Assembly: GCF_016811075.1 (NCBI RefSeq)
Contig: NZ_JAFBGL010000002.1
Location: 372,001-436,000 of the forward strand
Source: Oceaniferula flava
GTDB taxonomy: Bacteria; Verrucomicrobiota; Verrucomicrobiia; Verrucomicrobiales; Akkermansiaceae
DNA: 64,000 bases
Direction: 5' to 3'
Both the position numbers and the translations under genes were made by a program. Under the pieces are notes generated by a model, which ran no database searches, was not told the origin of the DNA, and saw only the letters and a program-made list of their open reading frames with translations. This document shows positions 1,131 to 56,977 of the stretch, in pieces; positions within the stretch are counted from its first letter, which is position 1, and the number at the start of each line of letters is the position of its first letter.

Positions 1131-4100
1131 ATGCATAGTATTTCGTTAGCTCCCCCCGAAACAATGATGGTTCATCCACTTAACCCATTTTGTCCGCAAA
1201 TTACCGAGAGGAGACTTCGTGTCTGCTTTTCAAGTGAAAATGGTTTTGCGCTGATCGCCTCGATATCGGTGATGGTGCTGCTGGTAATGATCTCACTGGC
1301 GATGTTGAGCCTTTCCACCATCCAGCTGCGTTCCAGTGAGGCCGGCAGGGATGCAGAGGAGGCCAAGACCAATGCGCGCATGGCGCTGATGATGGCGATT
1401 GCCGAATTACAGAAAACAACGGGAGCTGACACCAGGATCACCGCCCCGGCAGATGCTCTTTCCACCAGCGACGCTCAAACTAGTAAGCATGTCAGGCAGC
1501 TCACTGGAGTGTGGCGTTCCTGGGAGGGGCTGGATCACGATACCTCAACGGGGCGGCCGATTGCTCCTGATTACGATATCAAAGGAGCAGCCGATCAGAG
1601 CGGCTCCGGAAATGGACGCTTTCTACGCTGGCTCATCTCAGACGATACCCAAGACCTTTACGATCCCTCTAACCCACCAGCTCTGGACGAAACCAGCGAG
1701 ACCGTGCCGCTACTGGCCGCAGGCACGCTGCCAAGTGGAAGCGATCAAGAAGTGCACGTGGTTCCTACGGAAATCAGCAACGACAACGGTCGCGGTGCCG
1801 TGGCTTGGTGGATTCAAGGTGAGAATACCAAGGTCCGTCTGAAACCCACCACCGCTCCGGTGTCCACCACCGAAGCCGTTGATCAGATGGTGGTTTCTCC
1901 CGGTCCCAGTGGTGATGCATTCAGCATCGAAGATAGCAGTGAGACCGATAAAGCGCTGACACAACCATCGCTGACTTTGGTTAAAAACTCATCGTCGTCA
2001 GGCGCGGCGGATCCGGCCGAGTTCTTTCACGACCTCACCGCGCATTCGAAAGGTTTGTTAACCAACAATGCCAACGGTGGCTGGAAGCGTGATTTATCGA
2101 TTTTTACCGAGAGTTTTGCGGCTATTTCAGAGCCTTTCCCCTCGTTGACCCTTGAGCCAGGAGAGGTCTATGAGGCAAGTAAGCAGCATGTCGGCGCAGG
2201 TGCTGGATCGGCACTCATTTACCCTTGGGGGAATCAGACTAGCGTCTATCCGGACGCCGTGAGCTGGTCGGCTCTCGTAGAATACATGACGCAATATCGC
2301 CGTGTTCAAAGTTCGGGCAACCCCATCACGAAGGTTCCCTTGTATTCCAGTAAGACGCACACCGATTGGATCGATAAGGTTAGGCATCTGCCCGTGCTGG
2401 CTCGGGCACACTTGGTGGTTTCACTCACAGCGCGTGAAGATACCGCCAGCTCGACCTATGTGCCCTCGATCCTGATCACCCCGGTAATCACTCTTTGGAA
2501 CCCATACAGCATCGCTCTCGATACCAGCAATTACAACAACATGCAGTTTGCCCTCAGCGATGTGGCTTGTCCGGTGAACTTTCAATTCAAGGTCGGGGCC
2601 GACTCGGTTACCAAGGACTTGGCTAAAATTGTCGCTCACGCCACGAACAACAGCAGCAACATGACCTGTTATATTCCGATCGCTTCGCCGAACTTGTGGC
2701 TGCCGGGCGAAGTTAGGGTGTTTTCTCCTCAGGGGAATGCGATTGCGAACAAGAATATCAAAAGCAAGATCACCTTTGTGGAGGGCTATCGTCCTGACAG
2801 TGGTCTGAGTTACAAACTGCTCAACAATGCGAACCGGTATTACCCCGCACAGCCAGGCACCGTTCAATATTCAGTGGGCAAAGCCACCATGGACGCCACC
2901 TTCACAGGTCCCAACGTCAAGGGGACAGGTTTATATTTTACACAGAAACTCGGCACGGGAAGCAATGCCAGCACCACGAATGTGCAGAACATGCTCGATA
3001 CCGATGATGCCCAGCGGATGTTGGGCGAAGAGGTGGTTTTGACCGCTACCAGTTCGGCATCTTTGTCTAGTTTGGCCTCTTCCCCCCAACCAGTTCTCAG
3101 CGTCATTATGGGCCTGCGCTACGGTCGCGACACCAATCCGAACCGAGACAACATCATGGTCAATGGGATTCACAACATGAACCCAACCGTGGGCTTCATC
3201 GTGGGTGGCGCAGCCGAGGCTGACGAACAGGACATGCAGGCACGCTTTGATGGTTTCCCCTACAACATTCAGCTGTATGCGGTGAATTCCTATGCCGACC
3301 CAGGCATGCCCAGCGGTATTACCGATGACCTTGAAGGCTACATTGGCAGTGGATTTGGCGCCAGTGATGGTCTGGCAAACTTGGTGCTGCTGGAAATCCC
3401 AAGTCGTCCGCTGCGCACGATCGGGGCGCTGCAGCATTTCAACGTCAATGCCTGTGATGATGCCGGCCCATACACGCTCAATGCCTTGGGCAACAGTCGC
3501 ACCAGCCCGTTTATCGAAAGCGATGAAATCCGCGTCAAACCAGTGGGTGGCGGAGCTGAATATGGGCACGATCATAGCTATGCGATCAACCACGTGATGA
3601 TGGACGATTGGTTTGTCTCCTCCATCACGCCCGGCATGAACGACTGGTCGGCCAATCAAAGCCGCAGCATGGAAGACGTCTATGCCGATCACCTCAGCGG
3701 CAGCGAGCCTCTGCCCAACCATTATTATACCCCCGCGAATGCGATGGGGGTGTCCGATGCCGCCGGTGAAGCAGCCGATTTTCTGAGCTATGAAGATGCC
3801 TGGCAGAAAGTCGCCGCAGAGCTCGAAGTCACGGGCATGTTCAACGTCAACTCCACCTCGGAACTGGCCTGGGCCATGTTGTTGAAACGGAACTTCAGTG
3901 GTGGCGATGGTCCCGGAGTTTTGACTTTAAACGACAGCACTCCAGGCAACGCGAGTGCCTCGGCCTCGTTGGTGGAGAACAGCGGCACTCCTTTCCCTCG
4001 GACGCTTATTAGCTCGGACAGCTCCGCAGGTGCCGGCGGGTACACTGAGCTCACTCAGCCAAGGCGTTTCACGGACGAGCAAATCATGGCCCTGGCGCGT

Positions 4101-4637
4101 GAGATTGTGGCAGAGGTGAAGAAGCGTGGCCCTTTTCTCTCGCTCTCTGAATTTTACAACCGTCAGCTTTCGGGAGACAGTGACCTCGCTCAAGCTGGGG
4201 CGGTTGAGAGTGCTTTGATGCGCTTGGCTGAGGGGGGGAGTAGTGAAAACCCCTTCCGTGATTTGCAAACGATCTTCACCGACACAGCCTCCTCTGTGAC
4301 TCCAACAGGTTCTCCTCTTACCTATCCCTTCCCAGCCGCGGCCGAAGGAAACCCTGCCTATGGCTTCCCTGGCTGGACTCGCCAGGCGGATGTGCTTCGC
4401 CCTCTTAGCGGAATCCTAACAGCCCGTGATGATACCTTTGTCATCCGTGCTTACGGCGCCAGCAAGGATGATTCAGGCAAGGTGTTAGCCGAAGCCTGGT
4501 GCGAGGCCGTGGTGCAGAGAACGGCAGAATTTGTTGACGGCTCCGATAAATACGCCCTGCCGAGCGATGATGAGCAGTCGTATGGTCGTCGATACGAAGT
4601 GAAAAAATTCCGATGGATGAACCCTAACGAGATCTAA
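1131..4637 (+). CDS. Giant prepilin-like protein (Verru_Chthon cassette A / GspK-like), copy 1
   Basis: A 1168-residue exported protein. A short basic leader is followed by a class III (type IV prepilin) signal: Gly then FALIASISVMVLLVMISLAM, about residues 38-58. Position +5 of the mature protein is not Glu, as in the tip pseudopilin GspK/PilX rather than major pilins. A helix (EEAKTNARMALMMAIAELQ) continues the pilin stalk. Near the C-terminus, GMFNVNSTSELAWAM and REIVAEVKKRGPFLSLSEF resemble the 'N-x-N-T/S ... R..GPF.S..E' signature of GspK. The tail carries ARDDTFVIRAYG and AWCEAVVQRTAEFVD, typical of the proteins NCBI calls Verru_Chthon cassette protein A. The usual B, C and D cassette partners are absent; instead a small secreted protein follows 19 bp downstream. 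A close paralog lies at 15370-18852. Several internal Met codons exist near the start, so the exact N-terminus is uncertain. The role as the tip of a pseudopilus-like structure is inferred. Confidence 0.8.
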   Translation: MHSISLAPPETMMVHPLNPFCPQITERRLRVCFSSENGFALIASISVMVLLVMISLAMLSLSTIQLRSSEAGRDAEEAKTNARMALMMAIAELQKTTGADTRITAPADALSTSDAQTSKHVRQLTGVWRSWEGLDHDTSTGRPIAPDYDIKGAADQSGSGNGRFLRWLISDDTQDLYDPSNPPALDETSETVPLLAAGTLPSGSDQEVHVVPTEISNDNGRGAVAWWIQGENTKVRLKPTTAPVSTTEAVDQMVVSPGPSGDAFSIEDSSETDKALTQPSLTLVKNSSSSGAADPAEFFHDLTAHSKGLLTNNANGGWKRDLSIFTESFAAISEPFPSLTLEPGEVYEASKQHVGAGAGSALIYPWGNQTSVYPDAVSWSALVEYMTQYRRVQSSGNPITKVPLYSSKTHTDWIDKVRHLPVLARAHLVVSLTAREDTASSTYVPSILITPVITLWNPYSIALDTSNYNNMQFALSDVACPVNFQFKVGADSVTKDLAKIVAHATNNSSNMTCYIPIASPNLWLPGEVRVFSPQGNAIANKNIKSKITFVEGYRPDSGLSYKLLNNANRYYPAQPGTVQYSVGKATMDATFTGPNVKGTGLYFTQKLGTGSNASTTNVQNMLDTDDAQRMLGEEVVLTATSSASLSSLASSPQPVLSVIMGLRYGRDTNPNRDNIMVNGIHNMNPTVGFIVGGAAEADEQDMQARFDGFPYNIQLYAVNSYADPGMPSGITDDLEGYIGSGFGASDGLANLVLLEIPSRPLRTIGALQHFNVNACDDAGPYTLNALGNSRTSPFIESDEIRVKPVGGGAEYGHDHSYAINHVMMDDWFVSSITPGMNDWSANQSRSMEDVYADHLSGSEPLPNHYYTPANAMGVSDAAGEAADFLSYEDAWQKVAAELEVTGMFNVNSTSELAWAMLLKRNFSGGDGPGVLTLNDSTPGNASASASLVENSGTPFPRTLISSDSSAGAGGYTELTQPRRFTDEQIMALAREIVAEVKKRGPFLSLSEFYNRQLSGDSDLAQAGAVESALMRLAEGGSSENPFRDLQTIFTDTASSVTPTGSPLTYPFPAAAEGNPAYGFPGWTRQADVLRPLSGILTARDDTFVIRAYGASKDDSGKVLAEAWCEAVVQRTAEFVDGSDKYALPSDDEQSYGRRYEVKKFRWMNPNEI

Positions 4638-4656
4638 GATTTTCGAATTACAGAGA

Positions 4657-5364
4657 ATGAAAACCCAAGATAAAAAAATGGTCCGACTGATACTGCTGCT
4701 GAGTGGATTGCTGTCAGCCATCGGTCTGGCTCAGGAGGCTGAAAACAAGGGCCGCCCTGTGAAATTGATGTATTACCTGGCCCCCGCGGATGCCCCCAGT
4801 GAAGCCTATCTCTATGCCGGAGGCAAGCAGGTGGCACAGACGGAACTGACCCGCACCAATTTTTCCGAAACCTTTAAGATCCCTCAGGGTGATCTGTTGT
4901 TGCGCTTTCTCAGCTCGCCACTGGCAGAGGGCCAGCGGCTGCCGAAGCGAGCTCCCTTGGTTAGAATCCCGGAAAAGTGGCAGAAGGTGCTACTGCTGGT
5001 ATTCGAAGACCCGAAGAACAGGGTGATGCCCATCCGAATTCAGGCGATCAATGCCAGCGATCGGCATTTTGGCCTCGGCAGCATTTACATGATGAACTTT
5101 TCTGAGGCGGGAGTGGTCGGTTCCATCGGCGACAAGCATCTGAAACTCAAACCGAAGTCGCTGAAAATCGTCAAGAACCCGGTGCAGAAAAATGGCTATT
5201 ACCCGGTGAAGTTAAATGCCGTGATCCGCGGAGAAAAAAAACCGCGCCGACTTGTGAAACAGATGTGGAGTCACAGCGACCGGATTCGCAATGTACTCTT
5301 TATCATGCCGAAGCCTGCGCCGCAGCATACCACCTACTACTGCGCTCCGATCCGCGATTTTTAA
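4657..5364 (+). CDS. Small secreted partner of the giant prepilin-like protein, copy 1
   Basis: A 235-residue protein with an N-terminal signal peptide (MVRLILLLSGLLSAIGLAQ, cleavage after Ala-Gln likely); translation could start at Met1 or Met8. No known domain is recognised. It is homologous to the 228-residue protein at 14630-15316. Shared features are an Ile-Pro-x2-Trp segment followed by a Leu/Val-rich strand, an Ala-Ile-Asn-Ala/Ser-Ser-Asp motif, a Tyr-Pro-Val motif, a Trp-x-His motif and a closing strand LFIMP. The mature protein looks beta-rich and basic. In both places the gene directly follows a giant prepilin-like gene, so the proteins probably work together in the periplasm or at the surface (inference). 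Its stop codon overlaps that of the convergent sigma-factor gene by three bases. Confidence 0.8.
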   Translation: MKTQDKKMVRLILLLSGLLSAIGLAQEAENKGRPVKLMYYLAPADAPSEAYLYAGGKQVAQTELTRTNFSETFKIPQGDLLLRFLSSPLAEGQRLPKRAPLVRIPEKWQKVLLLVFEDPKNRVMPIRIQAINASDRHFGLGSIYMMNFSEAGVVGSIGDKHLKLKPKSLKIVKNPVQKNGYYPVKLNAVIRGEKKPRRLVKQMWSHSDRIRNVLFIMPKPAPQHTTYYCAPIRDF

Positions 5365-6056
5365 GAGGAGCTAGCGCCGACCAGAAAGCCGGTGGATGAG
5401 CGGCAGAGACTGAGGAAGTCTTCCCACTCGAGCTCCAGCCATGGATCGGCGGCTTTCAGCTCGGCCATAGTCTCCTCCTTGATGGTGGTCATCACCGATG
5501 AGATTGCCCGGCTGACCTTGGATTGGCTCCAGCCGAATAAGGTTCCCACGGCGTCTTGTTTGACACCATGGACCACGACTAAGCGCATAAGCAGAAGATG
5601 GAGAGGATCGCAACGACTAATGGCATGCACGAGGGCATCGCGGATGAGTCCCACGAGTTGATCCTCGTCCGGAGGACTTGCGCCATCCTCGCCTGCGAGC
5701 ATGTCGAATTCATCTGTGGGTGCTGAATCCAGGTTACGGCTGGGTAATTGACCTTGGAACTTGGCGTGGCGTTTGTAATCGATGAGTCGATTGATCGCCG
5801 CGCGAGTTAGGAAAGCACGAACCTTGCCCTTACCATTGTATTTTTCCAGTAGGGGAGGTTTTCCATTTTTCCCTCCAAAGCAATCTGCGATAAGGTCCGC
5901 TGCGATATCTGAGGCCTCGCTGTGGCTGGCTCCTCGTTTGACGAGGACTGCGTGTAGCCAGTTCAGAGTTTCCTGACCGCCAATCTGGGCGCAGGCAGCC
6001 GCGTCACCGCCGAGTGCTGCTGCAACCAGTTCGCTATCGTTGGGATGATCTGACAT
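5361..6056 (-). CDS. ECF-type RNA polymerase sigma factor
   Basis: A 231-residue protein with the sigma-70 region 2 pattern at about 30-105 (SEASDIAADLIADCF, then KVRAFLTRAAINRLIDYKR, the promoter-melting and -10 recognition helices). Region 4 is at about 150-200 (DAVGTLFGWSQSKVSRAIS, a helix-turn-helix for the -35 element). A C-terminal extension (PWLELEWEDFLSL) is unlike typical ECF proteins and may be regulatory. It is the last gene of a minus-strand group: outer-membrane barrel, FecR-domain protein, sigma factor, with only 26 bp to the FecR gene. No membrane anti-sigma factor is next to it. The FecR protein is exported with no membrane segment after its signal peptide, so it cannot itself contact a cytoplasmic sigma factor. 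The regulon is unknown. Confidence 0.85.
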   Translation of the reverse strand: MSDHPNDSELVAAALGGDAAACAQIGGQETLNWLHAVLVKRGASHSEASDIAADLIADCFGGKNGKPPLLEKYNGKGKVRAFLTRAAINRLIDYKRHAKFQGQLPSRNLDSAPTDEFDMLAGEDGASPPDEDQLVGLIRDALVHAISRCDPLHLLLMRLVVVHGVKQDAVGTLFGWSQSKVSRAISSVMTTIKEETMAELKAADPWLELEWEDFLSLCRSSTGFLVGASSS

Positions 6057-6082
6057 AGGATTTGATCGGTTAAGTCTGACTG

Positions 6083-6964
6083 TTAGGGGGTCACATCGGG
6101 GGGCGTGCCATTGCCTCCTGTTGTGTCTCCCGGATAATCGTCAGGATAGTCTGTCTCGTACTCGTAGGGATCTGGCTTGTCGAGAATGTCGCGAAGGTCG
6201 TTGCGGTCCGCGATGACTCTTGAACCCGGATGGCGATTGACTTGGTTCTCGCTCACCAAGATGCCTTTGCGTTTGAGTTTTTCCTGCGCTTCCACGGCGA
6301 GAGCAATGTGCCGGCGAGCTTCAGGTGAGAGCGGACCGAAGACTTGGTTGCCTGCGAGCAGGGAGCTTTCCAGCAATCGTTTCAGGTCAACGTCCACCGG
6401 GCGGGTGATGATTGTCCCGTCGGGGCGCATGACGATCATTTGGCCGGCAGGCACTTTAACTTTCTGGGCTCGGCGGAACAGGCCACCTTTGCCTTTTTGT
6501 TTTCCCAGATTGAGAGACACGGTGCCTTCCAGAGTAATTAATTTGACCCACTTATCACGGTTGTATTCCATCAGCAGGGTCGTGCCTGTGATTGCCGCGG
6601 TGACGGTGGCTGTGCGAATGGTAGCTCCTCCGGCGCTCTTGGGAACTTGTAGTAAAATAGAGCCCTGATTGAGATTAATATCGCGACTGCCCTGGCGGAA
6701 GGTGAAGGCTGAGTTCGCTCCGAGCCGAGTGACTGTCCGATCCTGGAAGGTTAGTTCAGCACGAGAGCGGCGGCCTGTCTGCACGGAGGTATGGCCGCGG
6801 ACGGTATCTCCCACTTTCGCTTGGCGGGAGGAGTTCGGCTGGTGCAAACGGACGTCATTGACGCGGGTGGTGACTTTGGCTGATTGTAAATTATCCGCCT
6901 GCAGGCTGGGCCCCAGCAATAAACTGGCAGCGCTGAGTGTGGTGATGAGTGAGATTCGGCTCAT
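6083..6964 (-). CDS. Secreted FecR-domain protein
   Basis: A 293-residue protein with a signal peptide (residues 1-23, ending SLQAD) and a FecR beta-helix-like domain at about 30-150. Recognisable parts are VGDTVRGHTSVQTGRRSRAE, the DRTVTRLGANSAFTF strand, and ATVTAAITGTTLLMEY followed by LITLEGTVSLN. A helical segment rich in Glu and Lys follows, then an acidic, Tyr/Pro/Gly-rich tail (DPYEYETDYPDDYPGD). Unlike classical FecR it lacks the N-terminal cytoplasmic anti-sigma part and any retained transmembrane helix. It is therefore a periplasmic or surface member of the family, often found near CHASE2 cyclases and outer-membrane proteins. It lies between the barrel gene (85 bp upstream) and the sigma gene. 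Confidence 0.85.
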   Translation of the reverse strand: MSRISLITTLSAASLLLGPSLQADNLQSAKVTTRVNDVRLHQPNSSRQAKVGDTVRGHTSVQTGRRSRAELTFQDRTVTRLGANSAFTFRQGSRDINLNQGSILLQVPKSAGGATIRTATVTAAITGTTLLMEYNRDKWVKLITLEGTVSLNLGKQKGKGGLFRRAQKVKVPAGQMIVMRPDGTIITRPVDVDLKRLLESSLLAGNQVFGPLSPEARRHIALAVEAQEKLKRKGILVSENQVNRHPGSRVIADRNDLRDILDKPDPYEYETDYPDDYPGDTTGGNGTPPDVTP

Positions 6965-7049
6965 GGCGATGTGGGGTTGTTGAGTGGCGTTGTTGTTGTG
7001 TCGCTGTCTAGGACGGGGTGAACGGTGGATGCATTCAGTTTTTTATCGC

Positions 7050-8021
7050 TTAGAAATTGAAGGTCATCCCAAGACCAAGGCCTCCTTGAAAAGCGCTGTA
7101 ATCGGCGGCGCCGTCGGAGAGGTTGGAATCGTTTTCCGCGTAAAGTAAGGAAGCGTGAACTCGGGCAGAGCGATTCAATTGCCAGTAAAGTTCGGCCCCA
7201 GCGACTTGGTTCACGTCGTCGCGCCCAGCCTGATCGTAATCGTAAAGTGCTAGATGATAGAAAAAGACCGCCTTCAGGTCGTCAGTGATTTGGTAGGTGT
7301 AGCCAAGGTGCGCGCTGTATTCATCACGCTCCAGTCGACTCGGTTTAGTATTCAGATCATAGGCATAATCCAAGGCGACGTAGGCGGTGTGTTTCGGCGT
7401 GCTGAGGAAGACCTTGTGGGCTCCAACGCGCAGCCGATGTGAATTGTAGATTCCGTCACTGAGTGAACCAGAGGTAACACGGGCGTATTCGTATCGCGCA
7501 AAAAACAGCATGTCGAAGAACTCGGGGACGATTTTCACCAATCCCACACGACCGTCCGTGCGCTCGAAGTCCAGGCGGCTGGGCGAATCATAGCGATAGA
7601 TGCTCTGGGTGATGGAGAAATCGGCAAAGAGGTTATCCCCGATGCGTGGTTTCCAGGACGCGGCGGCCCGAGTTTTCCAGATCACACCATCGTCTTCGTT
7701 GCTTCGAGTGCTAGCCACGTTGTCCGTCCAGAAGAGGTGGGTCGCGATGTCAAAACGCAGTGGTGCGCGTCCTTGGTAACGTTTTAAAATCAACTGGTCT
7801 CCCAAGTCCGAGTCGCCGGGGCTGGTGGGGGCGAAACGCTTCTGCTGGTCGAGGTTCTGATCGCTGTATTCGTCTGGGTCGAAGCCGTCTCCCAAGAAGC
7901 GTTCGACGGGTGAGAGGGCGTCAATGGCAAAGCTGGCGACAGAACTCGCGGTGAGGGTAGCGACCACAAGGGCGGGTGATAGGAACCCTGAAGGTTTTGA
8001 TAGAGTAGCGATTTTTCGCAT
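7050..8021 (-). CDS. Outer-membrane beta-barrel protein
   Basis: A 323-residue protein with a signal peptide (cleavage near SVASFA). From about residue 90 on it shows regularly alternating amphipathic strands rich in Tyr, Phe and Arg (for example FDIATHLFWTDN, NLFADFSITQSIYRY, HTAYVALDYAYDLN, DLKAVFFYHLALYDYDQ, RVHASLLYAEND). It ends in the strand GLGLGMTFNF with a terminal Phe, the usual signal for BAM-dependent insertion. About 60 residues between signal and barrel (AIDALSPVERFLGDGFDPDE...) are low in strand character. No TonB plug domain is present, so it is not a FecA-type receptor. It starts the minus-strand barrel-FecR-sigma group and is divergent from the cyclase, with a 66-bp shared upstream region. 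It is probably a porin-like or exopolysaccharide/adhesin-related barrel; the substrate is unknown. Confidence 0.8.
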   Translation of the reverse strand: MRKIATLSKPSGFLSPALVVATLTASSVASFAIDALSPVERFLGDGFDPDEYSDQNLDQQKRFAPTSPGDSDLGDQLILKRYQGRAPLRFDIATHLFWTDNVASTRSNEDDGVIWKTRAAASWKPRIGDNLFADFSITQSIYRYDSPSRLDFERTDGRVGLVKIVPEFFDMLFFARYEYARVTSGSLSDGIYNSHRLRVGAHKVFLSTPKHTAYVALDYAYDLNTKPSRLERDEYSAHLGYTYQITDDLKAVFFYHLALYDYDQAGRDDVNQVAGAELYWQLNRSARVHASLLYAENDSNLSDGAADYSAFQGGLGLGMTFNF

Positions 8022-8087
8022 GGCAGGTGGGTTGTTGTTCAGTTACACAGAGATAACGAAGGTCAACCTAGGGCACTAACATTAGCG

Positions 8088-10250
8088 ATGACAAGCAAAC
8101 AGACCAATAATAGCACGCGTTCTGGCGAAACTCTGCGGTGGGGTCGCTGGGATCAGGACACCCGGAGCAGGGTGTTAGCCTGCTTCATTTGCGGTCTACT
8201 CGCTGCCGCGATGTGGTGGTTGCCGGTCATGGGAGACTTTCTGGCCAAGCAGGAACGGATGCTGCGGGACTTTTTCACCGCCCACGACCATCGATTGAAA
8301 CCCAGAGAGGATTTTGTTTTTCTGGGCATCGATTCCGCCAGCCTGACCCTCGACGGCCCTGCTGCGGAAGTGGTGGCAGGAAACTCGACGCTGGAAAAAA
8401 TGTCGAAGCGTTATCCTTGGGACCGCCGGGTTTATGCAGAGGCCATTGACCGCCTCGCCAATGCGGGGGCTAAGTTGATCATCATTGATCTCGTTTTCCC
8501 CCAAGGCGCCACTGCCGAGGAGGATGAGGCGTTGGCTGCTGCGATAGCGCGACACCGCAACAAGGTGGTGCTGGCGTCCGCTTTCATGGCTCAAGCCGCC
8601 GGCGATCAGCAGACGGTGACTCAGATGGTGGAACCTATTGAGCCGTTTCTAGGACCACTCGATAGTGAAACACCGTCAGGCTATGTCAATTTCTGGCCTC
8701 ATTACAAAGATCGGCTAGTGCGCGAAGTGCAGCTGAGTAAAACCCTCAGAGAGGTCAATAATCAGCCGCGGCGATCGGATGAGCCGGTGTTTGTGCCTCT
8801 CTCTGTGGCGGCGGCACGGCAGTTGGGAAAAGAGCCGACCGCGCCGAGTCAGATCGCCCGGTTCCGCATGGCGAGGGTGCAAGGGCGCAATGTCGACGAG
8901 GTTTATGAGCCTCAAAGTTTGTATCGCATCTTTGTGCCGAGCGATTGGCAGCAGTATCGTGAGGCGGCATTTTTTCAGGACAAGGTGGTCATTATCGGGC
9001 CGGCGGCTCCCACCTTTCAAGACGCGCACGACACGCCGGCAGGTAAGGTGTATGGTGCCCAGCTGCACCTTCACGCACTGGGGGCGATTCTTGAAGACGC
9101 TTGGTATCGTGAAGGCTTGTTAGGCGACGGGCTTTTGTTGCGTTGGATTCTTTGCGGTGTCGCTCTGATGGTTTCTTGTGCAGTGGCCTTTGCCTGGAGC
9201 CGGGTAGGGAGGTTGCTGCTGGCCTTGTCAGTAGCCTTTGTCCTTTGGTTGGGCACCGCCTATTTCACCTGCTACTTCACCGGGGTGGTCATTGGTGGTG
9301 TGCCATGGATGGCTACGACCTCATCCGGGATTTTTGGCGCGATGATATGGCAGGCCATCACGGAACGTGCGCGCCGGCAGCAATTGCACCGTCATTTGCA
9401 GAGATCGATGTCGCCGGATGTAGCTGATGCCATCGTGAAAGCTCCGTCCGGCTACTACGCGGCAGCTTCAGGAAATAGGAAAGAGGTGACCGTTCTGTTC
9501 GCCGATGTGCGCGACTTCACCACACGTTCGGAGCAGCAGGATGCGGTGCAGCTGGTGAGCCAGCTGAACGAATACCTCGAGAAAATGGTGGAGGTGATTT
9601 TTGCCCATGGTGGCACGGTGGATAAATTCATCGGCGATGCCATTATGGCAACGTGGGGCGGGCTGGATCGCGATGACTCACAAGCTCAGGCCGAGGCCTC
9701 TGTGCAGGCAGCCAAAGGGATGTTGCATGAGCTGGCGAAGTTGAATGCGAAGTGGGCGAGTGAAGGCTTGGAACCGTTCCACATAGGTATCGGTATTCAC
9801 CATGGCGAGGCGGTGGTGGGCGAGGTCGGCTCGGATCAACGCACTGACTTCACCGTCATTGGTGATGCGGTCAACCTGGCATCCCGGACTGAGGGTTTGA
9901 CCAAAAAGTTGGCTGTCGAGTTGCTCATTTCCTCTGCAGTGTATGCGCATCTGACCGAGCCGCAGGGGTGGGTCGAAGTGCTCAGTGTGCGGGTCAAGGG
10001 ACGCGATGCCGCGGTGTCACTCTACACGCCATTCCCTCACGATGATCAACAACGGCTCGTCTTGGAAGCAGGGGTAGCCGCCTTCCGCAGTGGTGATTTG
10101 AGCAAAGCGACCGCTCACTTTGCTGAGCTCGAAGCAGCTCCCACCTTTGCCGGTGTGGCCCGGTTCTATCAGCAGGAGCTAATGAAGCTGAGTGCGGGCA
10201 CAAAAACGCCGCCCGGATGGGACGGCGTGATTCGGATGGACAGTAAATAG
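8088..10250 (+). CDS. CHASE2-domain adenylate cyclase (class III)
   Basis: A 720-residue membrane protein. One N-terminal membrane segment (about 30-48) leads into a periplasmic CHASE2 sensor (about 55-330; DFVFLGIDSASL, AEAIDRLANAGAKLIIIDLV). Three membrane helices follow at about 345-430 and a class III cyclase catalytic domain at about 460-650. Catalytic features are visible: metal-binding Asp residues in FADVRDFT (about 471-478) and KFIGDAIMATWG (about 512), the Lys of that motif and the Asp-Phe-Thr of DFTVIGDAVNLASR, which favour ATP over GTP, and the transition-state Asn and Arg in the same motif. A C-terminal helical segment of about 70 residues has TPR-like character. It should make cAMP in response to an envelope signal. 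It is divergent from the barrel/FecR/sigma genes, suggesting a shared circuit (inference). Confidence 0.9.
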   Translation: MTSKQTNNSTRSGETLRWGRWDQDTRSRVLACFICGLLAAAMWWLPVMGDFLAKQERMLRDFFTAHDHRLKPREDFVFLGIDSASLTLDGPAAEVVAGNSTLEKMSKRYPWDRRVYAEAIDRLANAGAKLIIIDLVFPQGATAEEDEALAAAIARHRNKVVLASAFMAQAAGDQQTVTQMVEPIEPFLGPLDSETPSGYVNFWPHYKDRLVREVQLSKTLREVNNQPRRSDEPVFVPLSVAAARQLGKEPTAPSQIARFRMARVQGRNVDEVYEPQSLYRIFVPSDWQQYREAAFFQDKVVIIGPAAPTFQDAHDTPAGKVYGAQLHLHALGAILEDAWYREGLLGDGLLLRWILCGVALMVSCAVAFAWSRVGRLLLALSVAFVLWLGTAYFTCYFTGVVIGGVPWMATTSSGIFGAMIWQAITERARRQQLHRHLQRSMSPDVADAIVKAPSGYYAAASGNRKEVTVLFADVRDFTTRSEQQDAVQLVSQLNEYLEKMVEVIFAHGGTVDKFIGDAIMATWGGLDRDDSQAQAEASVQAAKGMLHELAKLNAKWASEGLEPFHIGIGIHHGEAVVGEVGSDQRTDFTVIGDAVNLASRTEGLTKKLAVELLISSAVYAHLTEPQGWVEVLSVRVKGRDAAVSLYTPFPHDDQQRLVLEAGVAAFRSGDLSKATAHFAELEAAPTFAGVARFYQQELMKLSAGTKTPPGWDGVIRMDSK

Positions 10251-10277
10251 CGATGGGCAAACCGCCACCTGAGAATA

Positions 10278-10703: not shown

Positions 10704-10853
10704 AAGTTATTGGGTATCAGTTCTGGGGGGTGAATGCACGTGGTAAATGTAAGACATCGCAGCGGGTGCCATGTTCAAGGGATTTGAGGGTTTCTTGTTA
10801 AGTTTTCTTAATTATCCGGCTAAGTGGAGGATATTGCTGCTTGTGAGGGGGCT

Positions 10854-11672
10854 TTACCATCCAAGGCAGCGCACAGAGCGGTCGTTGTGCGTCCATTGAT
10901 ATGAGCCGGTGATTAATTCTTGCACCGTTTTGATCCCGTTTTCCACGGCAGTCTCGACGGATTGACCGTGGGCGATGCCCGCAGTGATGGCGGAGGAAAG
11001 CGCGCAGCCGGTGCCGTGAATGCCGGAGCCAATGTGGGCGTCCGGATGCTGGAAGCGGTAGGCGGCGCCATCGTGCCAGAGCACGTCTAAGCGATCGTCC
11101 GTGCCGGGAAGATGGCCTCCTTTGACCAGGCAGGAGGTGTTGAATTTTTCAGCGATTTCCTTGGCCGCTGGTTCGAGATCGCGCTCGCTGCGGATTTCGC
11201 GATCGAGCAATACCGAGGCCTCGGGCATATTTGGAGTGACCAGAGTGGTGAGGGGGATGAGCCGATCGGCGATGGCCATAGCGGCGTCATTTTGCATTAG
11301 CGCGGAACCACTGGAGGCGACCATGACCGGATCCACCACGATGGGAATATCGAGGTCTTTTAAGATTTCACAGACGGCGACGATGCATGCACGTGATGGT
11401 AGCAGGCCCGTTTTCACAGCGGTCACAGGGTAGCTCTCGAGTAGGATTTGAATCTGACTTTGGAGCAGAGGTAGGGCTGTGGCTTCGATTTCGCGCACTT
11501 CTAGAGGCGTTTCAGACACCACGCTGGTGAGGGCTGATAGGCCATGCACACCAAGGCGCTGAAAGGTTTTCAGATCGGCTTGGATGCCGGCACCCGCTGA
11601 GCAGTCAGAACCAGCAATGCTGAGAGCGACCGGAGGTGCGCTGTGTTGGTTGGAGGACGATGACGAGTTCAT
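10854..11672 (-). CDS. thiD: Hydroxymethylpyrimidine / phosphomethylpyrimidine kinase
   Basis: A 272-residue ribokinase-fold enzyme that phosphorylates HMP and HMP-phosphate in thiamine pyrophosphate synthesis. Diagnostic parts are [20 protein letters not shown] near the N-terminus, [31 protein letters not shown] and the C-terminal anion-hole motif [10 protein letters not shown] with its catalytic Asp replaced at the usual GTGC-t-S position as in the family. The ATG at 11672 is preferred over the upstream ATG at 11732, whose extra 20 residues are unlike the family. The length is normal for ThiD alone; no ThiE or TenA fusion is present. It follows the large VWA gene by 108 bp, and no TPP riboswitch sequence is evident there. 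It appears isolated from other thiamine genes. Confidence 0.92.
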
Positions 11673-11780
11673 GGATGATAGGACGAATGCGATGTTGAGC
11701 CTGTAACATACACAGGATCTGCGGGGGTGCATCTGATTTTTCTGTCACAGTGCGAGACCTAGGGAGAGCTGGGAAATGGG

Positions 11781-14492
11781 TTACCGCTTTTTCTTGGCCC
11801 GGCTGAAGCGTGAGCTCCGGCTTGTTTCCGGCATCGTCACATCCGGGGCGGCGCTCGGGTTGGATGGTGGCGGTGAAGCTTTAGCGATAGAAGGTTCTGG
11901 GGGCGCTGTCGGCACGGCGGCGGGGCTTGGTTGGATCACTTTGGCTTTGGCGGGGCGTTGCGTGATCGCAGGCAATGGCAATTTCCATCCCGTGCGGGTA
12001 ATTAGTGCGTCGAGAACGACCAAGAGCAATGCGATGATCGCAAGCGGGATCCGAAGGTCGGTATCGTGGATTTGTGGCGGGCGCATCCAGGCCTGGGAAA
12101 GATCCACCAGCTCACGTCCGCCAGTTTGGGCTGAGACGGAGCGGAGTTCGGCAAGGCGGTCGGGATCGAATGCCCACTCGGTGCTGGAGCCAACGATGAG
12201 TGGGCCGAAGGGGATGGCGTGTTCTCCGGTTTGAATCGCACCGCGGATCAGACTGCCTTCTTCCAAGTCTCTGGTGAGAGAGAAACGACCCGGTGCAATG
12301 CGTTTCCAGGCCACCTCGTAAGGGGTGCCTGCGGCGTCGCCTTCCAGAAGGCGAATTCGCGGCGGGGTGATGGCGAATTTTTGGCCCCATTCTTCATGAT
12401 CGTAGAGGAGATCGATAGTGAGGCGAGTGCCTTCGAGCCGATGCCTGAGCCCGATTCCTGGCGGTAATTGATCGCCCATCAGCCACTGGGTGAGGGTCTG
12501 GATGAAGTCGCCATATGGTGGCCAAGCGCGGATTTTTTCAGAGTATTTCCCACCCAAGGGAAAGGAGACAGCCGCTGTGCGTCCGATGCCACGGCGGGCG
12601 TGGGCGACGAGTGGCGCGAGGTATTCATCGGTGGTGGCTAGGGAGGTGGTGGCATCTGGGCGGGCGTAGGAAAGGTTGTAGCCGTCAGCCTGTGCAGGCC
12701 AGCTGAAGGGGGTGGCCGAGACTTCACTCCACTTGCCTGTGGCGCGAGTGCCTACCGGATCGGTGACGAATGCCGAGCGCGCAATGGTGACTGTTTCCTG
12801 GGCAAATAGTCGTGGGATGTCGGCGGGGCGGGTGGTGAAAAAACAACGGCCCTTGCCGAGCTTGGCGATCTCTTGCAGGAGCTTGGCGTCGCTGTCGGCC
12901 GGGGTGCCGAGGCCGATGACGGAAACGGTGGCCCCTTCACGTGTCATCTCGGCTAACAACTTCTTATAAGCGCCGGGCTCTTCGGAGTCGGCGGCATCGG
13001 AAAAGAGGATGATATGGCGGGTGCCGGCGCTGGCCTTCTTCAGCTCCTTCCACGCGGCGCTCAGGCCGTTGTAAACGTAGATGCCGCCGCCCTGAGATTT
13101 GATGCGGCGGATTTTGCCGGTGATGGCATTTTTCTTGTCCTGGATTTCTACCAGGGGGACCATCTTGTGGGCTTCGCTATCGACGGCAAAGACGGCGACC
13201 TGATCCATGGTGCCCAACAGCTCAACCGCGCGGGCGGCTCCGGTGTTGGCGAGATCCATTTTGGATTTTCCGGCACCGGCACTCATCGACATCGAGCCGG
13301 AGCGGTCCATGACGATTGCCATGGCGACGGCGAGCTTACGGTGCTCGTTTTTCAACTCCATGGAAACGGGCAGCAGGGGATCGATGGGTGATTGGAAATA
13401 GCCACCGGAGCCGAAGGATTGTTTCCCTCCCACCATCATGAAGCCTCCACCCTGCTCGCGCACGTAGAAGTTCAGCGCGTCTTGAAAGGCGGCGGGGACT
13501 TCGAAGGCGGGGATATTGTTAAACACCACCGAGCGCGCACCGGCGAGCTGCCCGACTCTAAGACTGCCTGGTTCGCTGACCACCTGCACATCGTAGTCCT
13601 GATCTTTCAAGGCGGCTGCTAGAGGATCGTCGATGTATTTGCTGACTAACAGAACGCGTGGGCCGCCGGTTACCTCGATCCATCGCTCCGCCCGGTTGTT
13701 GCCTGGGTGGGCATCTTTTTCCGGCATGATGTCGGCGGTGTATTCATAAGAGCCACTGCGTGCGATCCGATCAGTAAACTCCGCCTTGCCGGTGCCCCCG
13801 GTGATTTTGACTTGGGTTTCTGAAAGTGTCTGGCCGTTGCGTTTGATGATCAAGGGCACGGTGGTATCGGTGAAGCCACGCACGGTGACGCCTAAAACAA
13901 AGGGCTCGCCCACCTGAGTTCTGACCGGGAGGTGGATGCGGGCCACGCGGAAGTCATCGGTGGTTTCCTCCCTCACCAAGCGGTAATCAAGGGGGATTCC
14001 CATCGAGCTGAGCTTGGCGGCTGCTTCGGAGAGGGGCTCCGTGGAGTAGCCATCGCTGAAGACGAGGATGCGCGATGGTCGGTCTTTCGGTGCCAGGGCG
14101 GTGATGTTTTGGATCGCCAGATTGGTGCGCGTCATCTTCCGGCTGCCGGTGAACACGGCGGTCTCGGTGCCAGGTTTTTGCTCCACGACTTCGGAGGCGT
14201 AATCGATGAAATGAAGTCGGTCTTGGCGCGAAGGTTTTGATTTCTCCAACAGCTTTTTCCACTCCGGCAAGCCTTTGTCGACAAGGTCCTCGGTGGATTC
14301 AGAGCGGTCTAACATCACCCACAGGTCGAGTGCGTCCTGTTGCTTGTTGATATGGGGGTCGGCTAACAAGACCGTGAGTGTCAGCAGCAACAGCGCACGC
14401 AGTGGTTTCCACAATTGCAAGGACCGCCATAGCAAACCTAACAGGATAAAGACGGGTAGCAGAAAAAACCACTCTGGAGCGCTGAATGTCAT
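11781..14492 (-). CDS. Large membrane VWA-domain protein with glutamine-amidotransferase-like fold
   Basis: A 903-residue protein. Two N-terminal membrane helices (about 8-45) are followed by a first degenerate VWA-like region (LDLWVMLDRSEST, then RILVFSDGYSTEP). Next come an immunoglobulin-like segment, a ThuA/GATase1-like region (GPRVLLVSKYIDDPLAAAL ... GGGFMMVGGKQSFGSGGY) and a full VWA domain at about 385-560 with an intact MIDAS (MDRSGSMSMS). The motif HIILFSDAADSEEPG supplies further ligands. A C-terminal membrane helix (IPLAIIALLLVVLDALI) precedes a Pro/Ala-rich, basic cytoplasmic tail. This architecture is common in Planctomycetota and Verrucomicrobiota beside MoxR/DUF58 genes and is probably an envelope-complex scaffold; the biochemical role is unknown. 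The tail ends in Arg/Lys residues. It lies upstream of thiD on the same strand. Confidence 0.85.
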   Translation of the reverse strand: MTFSAPEWFFLLPVFILLGLLWRSLQLWKPLRALLLLTLTVLLADPHINKQQDALDLWVMLDRSESTEDLVDKGLPEWKKLLEKSKPSRQDRLHFIDYASEVVEQKPGTETAVFTGSRKMTRTNLAIQNITALAPKDRPSRILVFSDGYSTEPLSEAAAKLSSMGIPLDYRLVREETTDDFRVARIHLPVRTQVGEPFVLGVTVRGFTDTTVPLIIKRNGQTLSETQVKITGGTGKAEFTDRIARSGSYEYTADIMPEKDAHPGNNRAERWIEVTGGPRVLLVSKYIDDPLAAALKDQDYDVQVVSEPGSLRVGQLAGARSVVFNNIPAFEVPAAFQDALNFYVREQGGGFMMVGGKQSFGSGGYFQSPIDPLLPVSMELKNEHRKLAVAMAIVMDRSGSMSMSAGAGKSKMDLANTGAARAVELLGTMDQVAVFAVDSEAHKMVPLVEIQDKKNAITGKIRRIKSQGGGIYVYNGLSAAWKELKKASAGTRHIILFSDAADSEEPGAYKKLLAEMTREGATVSVIGLGTPADSDAKLLQEIAKLGKGRCFFTTRPADIPRLFAQETVTIARSAFVTDPVGTRATGKWSEVSATPFSWPAQADGYNLSYARPDATTSLATTDEYLAPLVAHARRGIGRTAAVSFPLGGKYSEKIRAWPPYGDFIQTLTQWLMGDQLPPGIGLRHRLEGTRLTIDLLYDHEEWGQKFAITPPRIRLLEGDAAGTPYEVAWKRIAPGRFSLTRDLEEGSLIRGAIQTGEHAIPFGPLIVGSSTEWAFDPDRLAELRSVSAQTGGRELVDLSQAWMRPPQIHDTDLRIPLAIIALLLVVLDALITRTGWKLPLPAITQRPAKAKVIQPSPAAVPTAPPEPSIAKASPPPSNPSAAPDVTMPETSRSSRFSRAKKKR

Positions 14493-14629
14493 CGTGAATC
14501 AAGCAGTGGGATACTGCCATGATCCCAACCTGCCCAGTCGCTCAAAAATTGCAATGTTCAGCTCTTGAAAAATCCGCCCAACGGCGTTGGACAGTGCAGT
14601 TGGGAACGATACGTTTTCGTGATTAGAGA

Positions 14630-15316
14630 TCACGGTTCTTTTCTCTCATCCCTCCGATCGAGCACGCCCCAGACACGCGGGACTTTCTGGCCCGATGAGG
14701 GGACGACAAAAAGAATCTGACGAGCTTTTGGGTGATGCATCCAGTTGGTGCGACAAATGGCAGAACGTTTTTTTGTTTCAGGTAAGACACAATCGATGGC
14801 CACAGGATACGAGCCTCTTTTATCGATGGGGGCTTTGACGATACCTGATTTCCTCGGGCGAACGGAGAGCTGAGTCTGATTCCCGAATTTACCGATGAAA
14901 AGTGCATCGGAGAGGTTGTAAACCATGGTGTCTCCCTTGGCGATGTTACTGTCCGAGCTATTGATGGCCATGACGACGGCGGGGAAACCGGGTCGGTTGG
15001 GCTTTGGGATGAACACTAACAAGCAGCGGCTCCATTGCGCGGGTATCTTGACTGACTGGATGCCACGAGGAACTTCAACTCCCTCGGTAAGCTTGCTCTG
15101 ACTCACGGCCAAGGTCACCTTCCCTTCGGGTATCTCCACTTGGGGGGAGAGATTGCGTCTGGGCAGATCAATCTCTATCGACTTGGTTCCTGTGAAGAGA
15201 AAGGCTGTTTTCGGAGCTCCGCGGTGGGGCTGAAGGAAAATCGCTCGCACAGTGCGAGCCGAGAGCATGGGGGCGGCTACGAGGAGCACGAGAAGGATAA
15301 TCGACTGAATTCTCAT
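14630..15316 (-). CDS. Small secreted partner of the giant prepilin-like protein, copy 2
   Basis: A 228-residue protein with a clear signal peptide (MRIQSIILLVLLVAAPMLSA). It is the paralog of the protein at 4657-5364: IPAQWSRCLLVFIP, AINSSDSNIAKGD, GSYPVAIDCVL and TNWMHHPKARQILFVVP align with the corresponding segments there, and both end near an Arg-Asp. The first 70 mature residues are less conserved. No family is recognised. It lies 53 bp downstream of the giant prepilin-like gene, repeating the order seen in copy 1. A basic, beta-rich periplasmic protein that binds or matures its large neighbour is a reasonable guess (inference). Confidence 0.8.
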   Translation of the reverse strand: MRIQSIILLVLLVAAPMLSARTVRAIFLQPHRGAPKTAFLFTGTKSIEIDLPRRNLSPQVEIPEGKVTLAVSQSKLTEGVEVPRGIQSVKIPAQWSRCLLVFIPKPNRPGFPAVVMAINSSDSNIAKGDTMVYNLSDALFIGKFGNQTQLSVRPRKSGIVKAPIDKRGSYPVAIDCVLPETKKRSAICRTNWMHHPKARQILFVVPSSGQKVPRVWGVLDRRDERKEP

Positions 15317-15369
15317 GGGGGGAGTGTCAGTTAAGGTAGGGGTGATGAAGGTGGATACAAGGTTTCTTT

Positions 15370-18300
15370 TTACAACTCATCTTTTGCAAGCCAGCGAAAT
15401 GCTACGATCTGATAGCGTCGTCCATAACGCTTGTTCACCTCAGACTTCATCTCTGTGGAATAAGGGTCGATGACGCTGGGGTCGCTGGGGTCGACAAATT
15501 CGGCGCTGCGCTGCACCGTGGCTTCACACCATGCGGTGGCGACGATTTTATCAGGGTCAGAGGCATCTCTGGCATCGCCGTAGGCTCGGATGGTGAAGGT
15601 GTCGTCACGAGCGGTGATGATGGGGGCCAGTGGGGTGAGAATGTCAGCCTGGCGCACCCAGCCGGGCACTCCGAAAGCGGAGGACCCCAGAGCGGCTTCT
15701 GGGAATTTGTAATCGGTGTTTCCTGGAGGAGGAGATGTGATCTCAAAGGCTCTTGATTGGATTTCAGCAAAGGGGTTCTCTGCTGAGGTGCCCATGGCTG
15801 CCAAATTATCGAGTGCCTTTTGAATAGTGCTGGCAATGGCAAGGTCCTTGTCCGAAGAAAGTTGACGATTCACAAACTCGGAGAGCGAGAGGAATGGTCC
15901 ACGTTTGCGGATTTCCTCAACAATTTCCTCGGCGAGCGCGTCCACTTGCTCGTCCGTGAGTGCCGGGTAGCCAGCAAAAATGGCGGCGTCACTGTTCAAT
16001 GGGTTGGATTCGGTGGAGCCGGAATTTACCGCCTGATCGCCAGCGATTGAGGTTCTGGGGTAGGGATAGGACCTTGGCGCATCAGAGGTGGTGCTGCCGT
16101 TCGATGCCAAATAGGGGACTTCGCTATCGCGGCTGTGTTTCAAAATAGCTTTCCATGCCTCGACGGATACCGAGTTCACATTGAACATACCGGCTACTTC
16201 TAGCTGGGAAGCAATCGAGGCGTAAGTGTAAACGTTGGTGGCTGAGTTGACATGGTCACTGACGGCATCTTCATCGGCCCCGCTGGCTGGCAGGTAGAAG
16301 CGGTTGGGTAGTCGTTCGACGCCTGTGACATGGTCGCGGTAGACGGTTTCATAATCTCGATCTTCCGAATTGCTGAAATCATCGAGGTCAGGCGCGATGG
16401 AGGATACAAACCAGTCGTCAAAGAGGAGATGGTTGAGCATATAAGTGTCGTCGTTGATCATCCCTGAGTTCACAGACGTCGAGACCGAGACCTGGGTGGG
16501 TTCGAAAAGTGGATGAGCCGAGCCGTTGCCGATCAAGTTGAACTGGAATGGGGGGATGGGGTTGTTGTTGCGGGCGTCGAAGTGCTGCAGTTGCGCTAAA
16601 CTTTGTAGTGGTCGGGTCGGGAGCTCGGCCATCACGCTACGTGTCAGTCCGTCGTAGGCCGATAAACCGGAGACGATATATCCGCTGTTTGTGCTGGCAT
16701 CAAATTGGGGGATATAACGCGTATCATTCCAGCCATTCACGTCTAAGAAGGCAAAATCATAGGGGGCGTTGATCGGGTGGAATACGCCAGAGCCAGCCAT
16801 CGTTGTAAGGCTGGACCCATTATCTTCTTTGCCCACCTCCGCATAGTAATTGAGCGGATTGCTCTGCAGCATGCCTTTCGAATAAAGGTGCTGGTGCTCT
16901 GGCGCGGATGAGATGGGGGTTGCCATACGGAAGCCGAAGATTGCGCTGGCAAAGGCATAGCTGCCAGTGTCCTCAACATCGTCGACACGGTCGACTTCGG
17001 CACTCTGGGTGAGCGGTGGATAAAGCTGCTCGACAACATCTGAGCCTCCGAGCTGATCTTCACGATAGCCCATGCGCTGGGCCAAGGTGTAGGAGCTATT
17101 GATCGTGGTATCGAAGTAGATACCGATGCTGCCGTTCCCTGCAGAGGTATCATTGTAGGCGACTTCTTCGATGCTGTATGGATCGCTGGCATTCACGTAA
17201 ACTTCATTACCTGAATTAATGCGATAAAATCGCAAGCCGCCACCGGGCTGGTATCCGGGCACCAAATCGAGTGTGCGATTAGCGGCATCTTGCGGGCTGT
17301 TATTGCTCAGTCCGAAAATACGCGTGGCACCGGGGGCAAGGGTGAATGAGTTGCGAATCCTCAGCGTGATATCCCCGTTGGTGATCTGCGGAATCGAGGT
17401 GAGCGGGTAGACGGTTGATCCCACTTTAAAGGAGAACCTCAGAGGCACAATTCCTTCGCGGCGGATTCTCATTTGATAGGCTGAGGTGGTAAGTTCCACG
17501 TTGTAGGGGTTCCATAGCGTGACCACGGGCGTGAGCATCAGGCCTGGTTTGTATTTCCCCGCATTGGTGCCACTCACTTGCTTAGTGGAGCAGAGTGAGA
17601 AGACCCACTGAATGCGTGCCAGTTGCGGAATACGACGAACTTTTTCCTGAAAGTTATAACGGTCATTGGCGCCAATGCCAGAAATGTGGGTGTTCATGGC
17701 CGTCTTGGCTGATGAGCCGCTGGTCAGGTTCTGGTATTGCAACGCGTAATCCACCAAGGCGGTCCAAGAGCAGATGGGTGGGACCTTGCCCCATGCTGTA
17801 TTGCGGACGTTGCGGTAGCTCGACCATGGGTAAATCAAGGCATCGTTGGGGAAGCTGCTCTGTGTGGCCTTGTCAAAAGTTTCAATGTCTCCAGGCTCCA
17901 TGGTGAACGATGGAAGGTCGGTGTTAGGAAGCTGTTGATACTGCTCGGACAGCAGAGAGATATCTTTTCTCCAGCCTCCCGTGGCAGTGTTGGTCAACAG
18001 ACCTCGATTATAGGTTGTGAGATCGTGGAATTTTCGCACCTCGGCGCCTGATTCTACGAGTTCTAGACTTTCTCTGCTGGGAACGGTGGAGCCCACAGCG
18101 CGGTCATTGATTTTCCCCAGTCCAAAGGTTTCCGCATCGGCACGTCCATTCGAGCGCACACGCTGATGCCACTCCACCACAGAGGATGGTGTTTCGGTGA
18201 GGTCGGTGTTAATCATCGCCTTGCTGTTGTCCCCACTGGTCCACCAAGCGACCGCACCCCGGCCATCGTTCACCGGTAAGGGGTTGACGTAGACATGTTC

Positions 18301-18852
18301 ATCGGGGCTGGCCACGCTGCCGGAGCCTAGCATTAGAATGTAATCATCGGTTGCAGTTTTGGAAAAATCACTGAGGTCATCGACGCTGGGGCTGGCCGAG
18401 GTAGAAGCCAGCCAACCTAGGAAACGTCCATCGTCACTGGCGTTGGCGGGATCTTTGTCAGGGTCACCTGTGCGTGTTTTTAGGTCGTAGTCCGGAGCCT
18501 TCGGTTTACCCGTGCCGTCATGATCGGTCCCTTCCCAACTTCTCCAAACGCCGGTCGCAGCCACGTGGCTTTCCGACAGTAAACGTGAGCTCGCGGTCAC
18601 TCGCGTGTCGGGCCCTGATAGCGACTGCAGCTGGCCGATGGCCATCATCAATGAAAGTCGAGCATTGTGCCTAGCTTCCTCCATGGCTTGGTCATGGTTT
18701 GAAGACCGCACGGAGATGCTGGACAGTGAGAGCATCGCCAATGCGATCATGGATAAGAGCACCATCACCGATATCGTGGCGATGAGTGCGAAGCCGGATT
18801 GTGTGTGGCCGTGTGAGGAGCCTCCGTTTCGATGGGGGTGTGTAGTTTTCAT
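15370..18852 (-). CDS. Giant prepilin-like protein (Verru_Chthon cassette A / GspK-like), copy 2
   Basis: A 1160-residue paralog of the protein at 1131-4637. The N-terminus is short and basic, then Gly with FALIATISVMVLLSMIALAM, a class III prepilin signal again without Glu5. Landmarks shared with copy 1 are TGVWRSWEGTDHD, NDGRGAVAWW, RGLLTNTATGGWRKD, VVTLWNPYNVEL, HLLFDDWFVSS, AGMFNVNSV, RKRGPFLSLSEFVNRQL and, at the end, ARDDTFTIRAYG, AWCEATVQRSAEFVD and RYGRRYQIVAFRW. The middle parts have diverged strongly, so this is an old duplication or separate acquisition, not a recent copy. The start at 18852 gives a 19-residue leader before the Ser-Gly-Phe cleavage site, which is normal for prepilins and cleaner than in copy 1. 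The partner gene follows at 53 bp. Confidence 0.82.
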   Translation of the reverse strand: MKTTHPHRNGGSSHGHTQSGFALIATISVMVLLSMIALAMLSLSSISVRSSNHDQAMEEARHNARLSLMMAIGQLQSLSGPDTRVTASSRLLSESHVAATGVWRSWEGTDHDGTGKPKAPDYDLKTRTGDPDKDPANASDDGRFLGWLASTSASPSVDDLSDFSKTATDDYILMLGSGSVASPDEHVYVNPLPVNDGRGAVAWWTSGDNSKAMINTDLTETPSSVVEWHQRVRSNGRADAETFGLGKINDRAVGSTVPSRESLELVESGAEVRKFHDLTTYNRGLLTNTATGGWRKDISLLSEQYQQLPNTDLPSFTMEPGDIETFDKATQSSFPNDALIYPWSSYRNVRNTAWGKVPPICSWTALVDYALQYQNLTSGSSAKTAMNTHISGIGANDRYNFQEKVRRIPQLARIQWVFSLCSTKQVSGTNAGKYKPGLMLTPVVTLWNPYNVELTTSAYQMRIRREGIVPLRFSFKVGSTVYPLTSIPQITNGDITLRIRNSFTLAPGATRIFGLSNNSPQDAANRTLDLVPGYQPGGGLRFYRINSGNEVYVNASDPYSIEEVAYNDTSAGNGSIGIYFDTTINSSYTLAQRMGYREDQLGGSDVVEQLYPPLTQSAEVDRVDDVEDTGSYAFASAIFGFRMATPISSAPEHQHLYSKGMLQSNPLNYYAEVGKEDNGSSLTTMAGSGVFHPINAPYDFAFLDVNGWNDTRYIPQFDASTNSGYIVSGLSAYDGLTRSVMAELPTRPLQSLAQLQHFDARNNNPIPPFQFNLIGNGSAHPLFEPTQVSVSTSVNSGMINDDTYMLNHLLFDDWFVSSIAPDLDDFSNSEDRDYETVYRDHVTGVERLPNRFYLPASGADEDAVSDHVNSATNVYTYASIASQLEVAGMFNVNSVSVEAWKAILKHSRDSEVPYLASNGSTTSDAPRSYPYPRTSIAGDQAVNSGSTESNPLNSDAAIFAGYPALTDEQVDALAEEIVEEIRKRGPFLSLSEFVNRQLSSDKDLAIASTIQKALDNLAAMGTSAENPFAEIQSRAFEITSPPPGNTDYKFPEAALGSSAFGVPGWVRQADILTPLAPIITARDDTFTIRAYGDARDASDPDKIVATAWCEATVQRSAEFVDPSDPSVIDPYSTEMKSEVNKRYGRRYQIVAFRWLAKDEL

Positions 18853-55578: not shown

Positions 55579-55579
55579 C

Positions 55580-56965: not shown

Positions 56966-56977
56966 ATCTTGCTGAGC

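Follow-up and report, generated by a model that had tools for sequence, protein, structure and literature searches.

Two gene pairs in a 64,000-nucleotide stretch of Oceaniferula flava DNA (the window) each consist of a very large gene with a prepilin-like product, followed by a small gene for a predicted exported protein. What do these two proteins do together, and does the small protein stand in for pilin-type subunits that would otherwise be expected beside such a giant? A preliminary description had read the giants as Verru_Chthon cassette A proteins whose B, C and D pseudopilins had been replaced by the small protein, in a system for surface display or adhesion.

Two pairs among thirteen cassettes

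The features of the two pairs are as follows.

1131..4637, plus strand: giant 1, a GspK-like prepilin-type protein of 1168 aa, end-to-end homologue of giant 2, with 13 paralogues
1242..1418, plus strand: N-terminal helix of giant 1 (aa 38-96), together with its predicted prepilin-type cleavage site between G38 and F39 (GFALIA, lacking Glu5)
3822..4637, plus strand: conserved C-terminal region of giant 1, with FNVNSTS, RGPFLSLSEF, ARDDTFVIRAYG and AWCEAVVQR (alignment of paralogues)
4657..5364, plus strand: small exported partner 1, 235 aa, predicted signal peptide and two Ig-like beta-sandwich domains (structure model, fold search)
15370..18852, minus strand: giant 2, a GspK-like prepilin-type protein of 1160 aa (structure model)
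18616..18795, minus strand: N-terminal helix of giant 2 (modelled over aa 23-79), together with its predicted prepilin-type cleavage site between G20 and F21
15370..16203, minus strand: conserved C-terminal region of giant 2 (alignment)
14630..15316, minus strand: small, predicted exported partner 2, 228 aa (similarity to small protein 1, family alignment)

The coordinates of both pairs, the order of giant then small gene, and the spacers of 19 bp (pair 1) and 53 bp (pair 2) were all confirmed. The two giants are 37% identical from end to end (E=0) and the two small proteins 31% (6e-36). The preliminary description had presented the pairs as a duplicated cassette; both are real, but they are only two of the 13 in the genome, where a whole-genome search with giant 1 identified 13 giant loci with open reading frames of 1126-1354 aa (giants of 1124-1350 aa). 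Its quoted motifs are likewise present in the window copies, but INASD/INSSD and YPV characterise the two window small proteins. The residues that are nearly invariant across the whole small-protein family are G141, N147, G158, W204 and R211 (window numbering).

A small gene lies 3' of the giant on the same strand in all 13 genome copies, with gaps of 6-53 bp and one overlap that depends on the choice of start. Twelve of these small genes were visible at once, and the thirteenth (contig C2, L038:5259-5993), 52 bp downstream of its giant, was recovered by a profile. The genome also contains one small gene without a giant neighbour (C7:92082-92738, equivalent to L084:7083-7787), which sits among oxidoreductase and DUF1080-like genes.

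We considered a recent local inverted duplication as the origin of the window pairs and rejected it, because each copy is closer to its own orthologue in another genus (51% and 48% identity) than to the other window copy (37%), with the same pattern in giant and small genes. For the giant and for the small gene alike, the orthologue of copy 1 is in L116/L118 and that of copy 2 in L121, indicating that the pairs were inherited as units and that the split between the window copies is old. The segment between the pairs (5361-10250) encodes a sigma-70-like factor, a FecR-domain protein, a beta-barrel (BBP2_2) protein and an adenylate-cyclase-like protein. Since sigma factors also adjoin the cassettes of loci L029 and L030, some cassettes may be under sigma/FecR-type control. 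Elsewhere in the window, transglutaminase-like, DUF58-like and MoxR-like ATPase genes stand in a row at 53482-57913, the usual MoxR operon layout as judged from the translations.

Pairing across related genomes

Of 39 related genomes, 26 gave a match to the small-protein profile. A first model, applied to 18 genomes, recognised a same-strand small gene for 76 of 94 giants; the first pairing counts (76/94 and 97/126) were too low because some small open reading frames begin inside the giant gene or have diverged. With an iterated model, applied to loci from the genomes together with 80 named records, 105 of 125 distinct giants were paired, three lay at contig ends, and 17 (about 14%) had no recognised partner. 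For at least one of these 17 (L213), the next gene looks like a diverged member of the small family. At several loci the small gene occurs as a tandem pair, and a few small genes stand alone. In L184 and L190, both from Akkermansia-labelled metagenome-assembled genomes, the giants are followed by a different conserved protein of 465-486 aa and no small gene; this protein may be an alternative partner.

The claim of conserved pairing therefore extends well beyond the window (13/13 copies in the genome, 105/125 across relatives). Small homologues occurring mostly without a giant neighbour had been named in advance as the outcome that would speak against it; in the profile search, pairing prevailed. 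The named loci all belong to Verrucomicrobia, nearly all of them labelled Akkermansiaceae, Verrucomicrobiaceae or Verrucomicrobiales, and the same giant occurs in a relative from the window's family and in an Akkermansia record (L190 and L203), which makes Akkermansiaceae the probable identity of that family. The small-protein family is previously unnamed and the multi-copy gene family is nameless in the databases searched; no paper describing the giant-small cassettes was found in the open-licence literature.

Giant and small proteins also diverge together. Their distance matrices agree among the 13 pairs of the genome (Mantel r=0.64, p=2e-4), and their distances correlate across 92 pairs (r=0.93). 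Because the 13 pairs reside within one genome, species history does not explain their co-divergence. These data bear on a simple alternative, namely that the small protein is a secreted substrate co-expressed with the giant and without physical partnership. Its export signal and the existence of giant-less small genes (such as that at C7:92082) would fit, but co-divergence within one genome and near-invariable adjacency speak against it, and we regard it as very unlikely.

The giant: a prepilin-type helix carrying a large variable body

To describe how conservation is distributed along the giant, we compared the 13 paralogues. Identity is low in the leader (17%), high in the N-terminal helix (65% on average), down to 14-27% in the centre, and higher again at the C-terminal end (47%), where the two best-kept stretches reach 38% and 47%. 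The strong central divergence first remarked on in the two window giants is thus true of all 13. Their prepilin-like character was also borne out, with a conserved GFALIA site and a pilin-type N-terminal helix. The predicted cleavage site reads GFALIA, cut after the glycine, in 12 of 13 giants and AFVLIA in one, where Ala and not Gly precedes the cut. Position +5 is Ala in all 13, so that Glu5 is absent. The AlphaFold model of giant 2 (pLDDT 88.5, pTM 0.90) begins with a 57-residue helix spanning residues 23-79.

GspK-family pilins are large, lack Glu5 and cap the filament tip (PMC5207764, PMC4471445). GspK lacks Glu5, is larger than the other subunits, and has a bulky domain between the N-terminal helix and the C-terminal strands; the giants share the first two of these properties, having a class III N-terminus without Glu5 and a size above that of the other pseudopilins. 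A fold search with the giant gave no significant match; GspK (3ci0_K) came first, at a non-significant level (E 0.043, probability 0.12), and XcpX appeared lower down. The NCBIfam GspK model produced weak N-terminal matches in 11 of 13 giants, all below the cut-off (best 2.9e-5), while Pfam PF03934 (T2SSK) matched none of the 13 and nothing in the genome at E<=0.01. Other Pfam models gave nothing convincing on the giants, a PDB sequence search with the giant profile found nothing real, and the profile of the giant C-terminus missed the genome's own GspK. A match of that C-terminal profile to DeNovoTIM designs (6e-7) was discarded, as it consists of a 25-residue match repeated four times in the design.

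The giants therefore differ from GspK in being three to four times larger, in lacking a Pfam T2SSK match, and in having many paralogues in a genome that possesses its own GspK. On the basis of large size, missing Glu5, weak GspK matches and the tip-pilin literature, we describe the giant as probably working like a GspK-type tip subunit; it is not filed as a GspK or a TIGR02600 member.

Modular pilins offer another comparison. In proteins such as PilB of Streptococcus sanguinis, a functional module is carried on a pilin helix with a predicted position at the tip (PMC8179133). With a predicted prepilin-peptidase site, a hydrophobic N-terminal helix and a large extra body, the giants would qualify as modular pilins judging from their sequences. 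The most extreme modular pilin named in that paper has 860 residues, and no companion gene is mentioned in the relevant passages, whereas the giants reach 1124-1350 aa, have a body of unrecognised type, and come with a companion gene.

The small protein: a predicted exported partner

The small protein had no sequence match in Pfam, NCBIfam or PDB, the Pfam scan yielding scattered chance hits only. The model of small protein 1 (pLDDT 94.6, pTM 0.85) shows a signal helix at the N-terminus and, after it, beta structure throughout; fold matches together with the strand count point to two Ig-like domains. The nearest folds are the extracellular domain of PepT1/PepT2 (E 2e-7 to 5e-5) and, more weakly, the C-terminal domain of AlgF; both have an Ig-like beta-sandwich as predicted for the small protein, at 11-14% identity and in unrelated contexts. 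No lipobox was seen by eye in the small-protein N-termini.

The small protein might also be a periplasmic chaperone or assembly factor that caps the beta-rich giant body until it enters the filament and itself stays in the cell. Such a role would suit its two Ig-like domains, its signal peptide, in which no lipobox is evident, and its strict, co-diverging pairing with the giant. FimC, a chaperone with two Ig domains, is among the fold matches of the small protein, but weakly (E 0.06, TM about 0.15), and both PepT1/PepT2 (E 2e-7) and AlgF match better. The tandem small genes at some loci and the roughly 14% of giants without any small gene also argue against a chaperone, which we consider a rather unlikely role.

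The closest working analogue of the giant-small pair is CofB-CofJ / TcpB-TcpF, in which a large minor pilin specifically binds a co-encoded secreted protein (PMC9565799). As judged from the genes, the likeness would consist of a large pilin co-encoded with a predicted Sec-exported soluble partner, an arrangement found in 13 of 13 cassettes. The analogy has clear limits: no sequence or fold similarity to CofJ or TcpF was found for the small protein, the fold search included; TcpB and CofB keep Glu5, unlike the giants (PMC5207764); and those systems lie within one pilus operon, whereas the giant-small cassettes are scattered and multi-copy.

Verru_Chthon proteins and the minor pseudopilins

Verru_Chthon A proteins (TIGR02600; B, C and D are TIGR02598, TIGR02599 and TIGR02596) are similar to the giants in length and have a related prepilin-type N-terminus. 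Nevertheless, identification of the giants as Verru_Chthon A could not be upheld. The window giants score 27.2 and 22.1 bits against TIGR02600 (22-30 bits overall), far under the curated cut-off of 332.3 bits, and the match is confined to the first 60 or so N-terminal residues. No hit above the cut-off was found in this genome or in the window's family, and bona fide members of TIGR02600 come from other families of the order. A weak collinear resemblance between the C-terminal thirds of giant and Verru_Chthon A (hhalign E 0.03) was set aside as suggestive only. The giants are further distinguished by the small beta-sandwich gene that follows them and by their many copies per separate D-B-C set.

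The B, C and D genes are indeed absent beside both window giants, but their replacement by the small protein proved wrong, because a separate D-B-C set exists in the genome. The genes of this pseudopilin trio, at C2:346.3-348.9 kb, most closely resemble Verru_Chthon D, then B, then C, although none reaches the cut-off; the trio shares its strand with another cassette and lies about 5 kb downstream of that cassette, with other genes intervening. In one relative (G028, locus L240), giant, small, D, B and C genes are contiguous on one strand. Its D-B-C genes are homologous to the trio, and both genes of its pair are closest to one cassette of the present genome (C5:78-82 kb). The separate set and this contiguous arrangement together mark the small protein as an added component and not a substitute. 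A search of 829 kb lying downstream of other giants revealed no D-B-C genes, and they were seen beside giants in that one relative only; most cassettes would thus need D-B-C in trans, if they use them at all.

Secretion machinery is present in the genome, with nine matches to T2SSE-type ATPases, one prepilin peptidase, secretins, and a canonical T2SS cluster. The cluster comprises GspD, G and H, a GspK of 317 aa, and L, M, I and J, these last four being assigned by position or weak match. A gene of the secretin family (Pfam Secretin) also lies at 62709-63998 of the window and runs off its end.

The usual separation of giants from D-B-C genes and the non-significant GspK match by fold or Pfam leave room for another reading, in which the giant is no filament subunit but sits in the envelope, anchored through its N-terminal helix, with the small protein as a second subunit of that complex, for example in polysaccharide handling. 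The genome has 90 PEP-CTERM matches, with a weak excess near the cassettes: such genes lie within 4 kb of 8 of 13 cassettes, against 3.1 expected (p=0.004), although significance is lost when the flank is 2 kb (p=0.16). We did not adopt the PEP-CTERM link as main evidence, as the 4-kb flank was chosen after looking, none occur at the window cassettes, and only 12 of the 80 named loci have them. Conservation centred on a prepilin-type helix with a GFALIA site and the D-B-C pseudopilins directly after the pair in G028 also weigh against an envelope protein of this kind, and its probability appears low.

A possible repertoire of filament tips

We propose, with a rough probability of 0.5 for the explanation as a whole, that each window pair is one copy of a multi-copy cassette whose giants serve as modular tip subunits of GspK-like type, every giant matched with an exported partner of its own, and possibly exchangeable on shared machinery. 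The N-terminal helix of the giant would be cut by prepilin peptidase and would anchor the protein at the tip of a pseudopilus or pilus, in the role of GspK, so that the variable body of about 800 residues would be carried at the filament end, where it may engage tip ligands. The small gene would lie on the giant's transcript, and its product, probably a Sec-exported two-domain beta-sandwich protein, would be dedicated to the giant of the same cassette, either binding to it or being passed out by it in the manner of CofJ/TcpF. Loci elsewhere in the genome would provide the ATPases, the secretins and the prepilin peptidase, as well as the minor pseudopilins D, B and C.

Several observations count against the tip reading: a canonical T2SS, complete with a GspK of ordinary size, is already present, one giant carries Ala before the site, about 14% of giants are unpaired, D-B-C genes are rarely adjacent, no fold or Pfam T2SSK match is significant, and the small protein showed no relation to CofJ/TcpF in the fold search. 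A surface display or adhesion role for the cassettes, as first suggested, would still be plausible.

Because the shared components are encoded elsewhere, the cassettes would be alternative tips for common machinery. In its strongest form, a filament with swappable tips, a shared pseudopilus core and one D-B-C set would serve 13 or more GspK-like tips with their own partners. This form is conceivable but doubtful; it stems from comparing the number of cassettes in one genome with the single D-B-C set that a non-exhaustive search detected there. The usual view of type IV filaments gives each machine a single tip complex. If tips were swappable, one machine would present or export a repertoire of different ones. 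A lineage with so many tip-like giants, at least a dozen, and an exported partner to match each would offer a natural system for studying tip choice and binding, and the proposal suggests a function that can be tested for a multi-copy gene family of Akkermansiaceae and their relatives.
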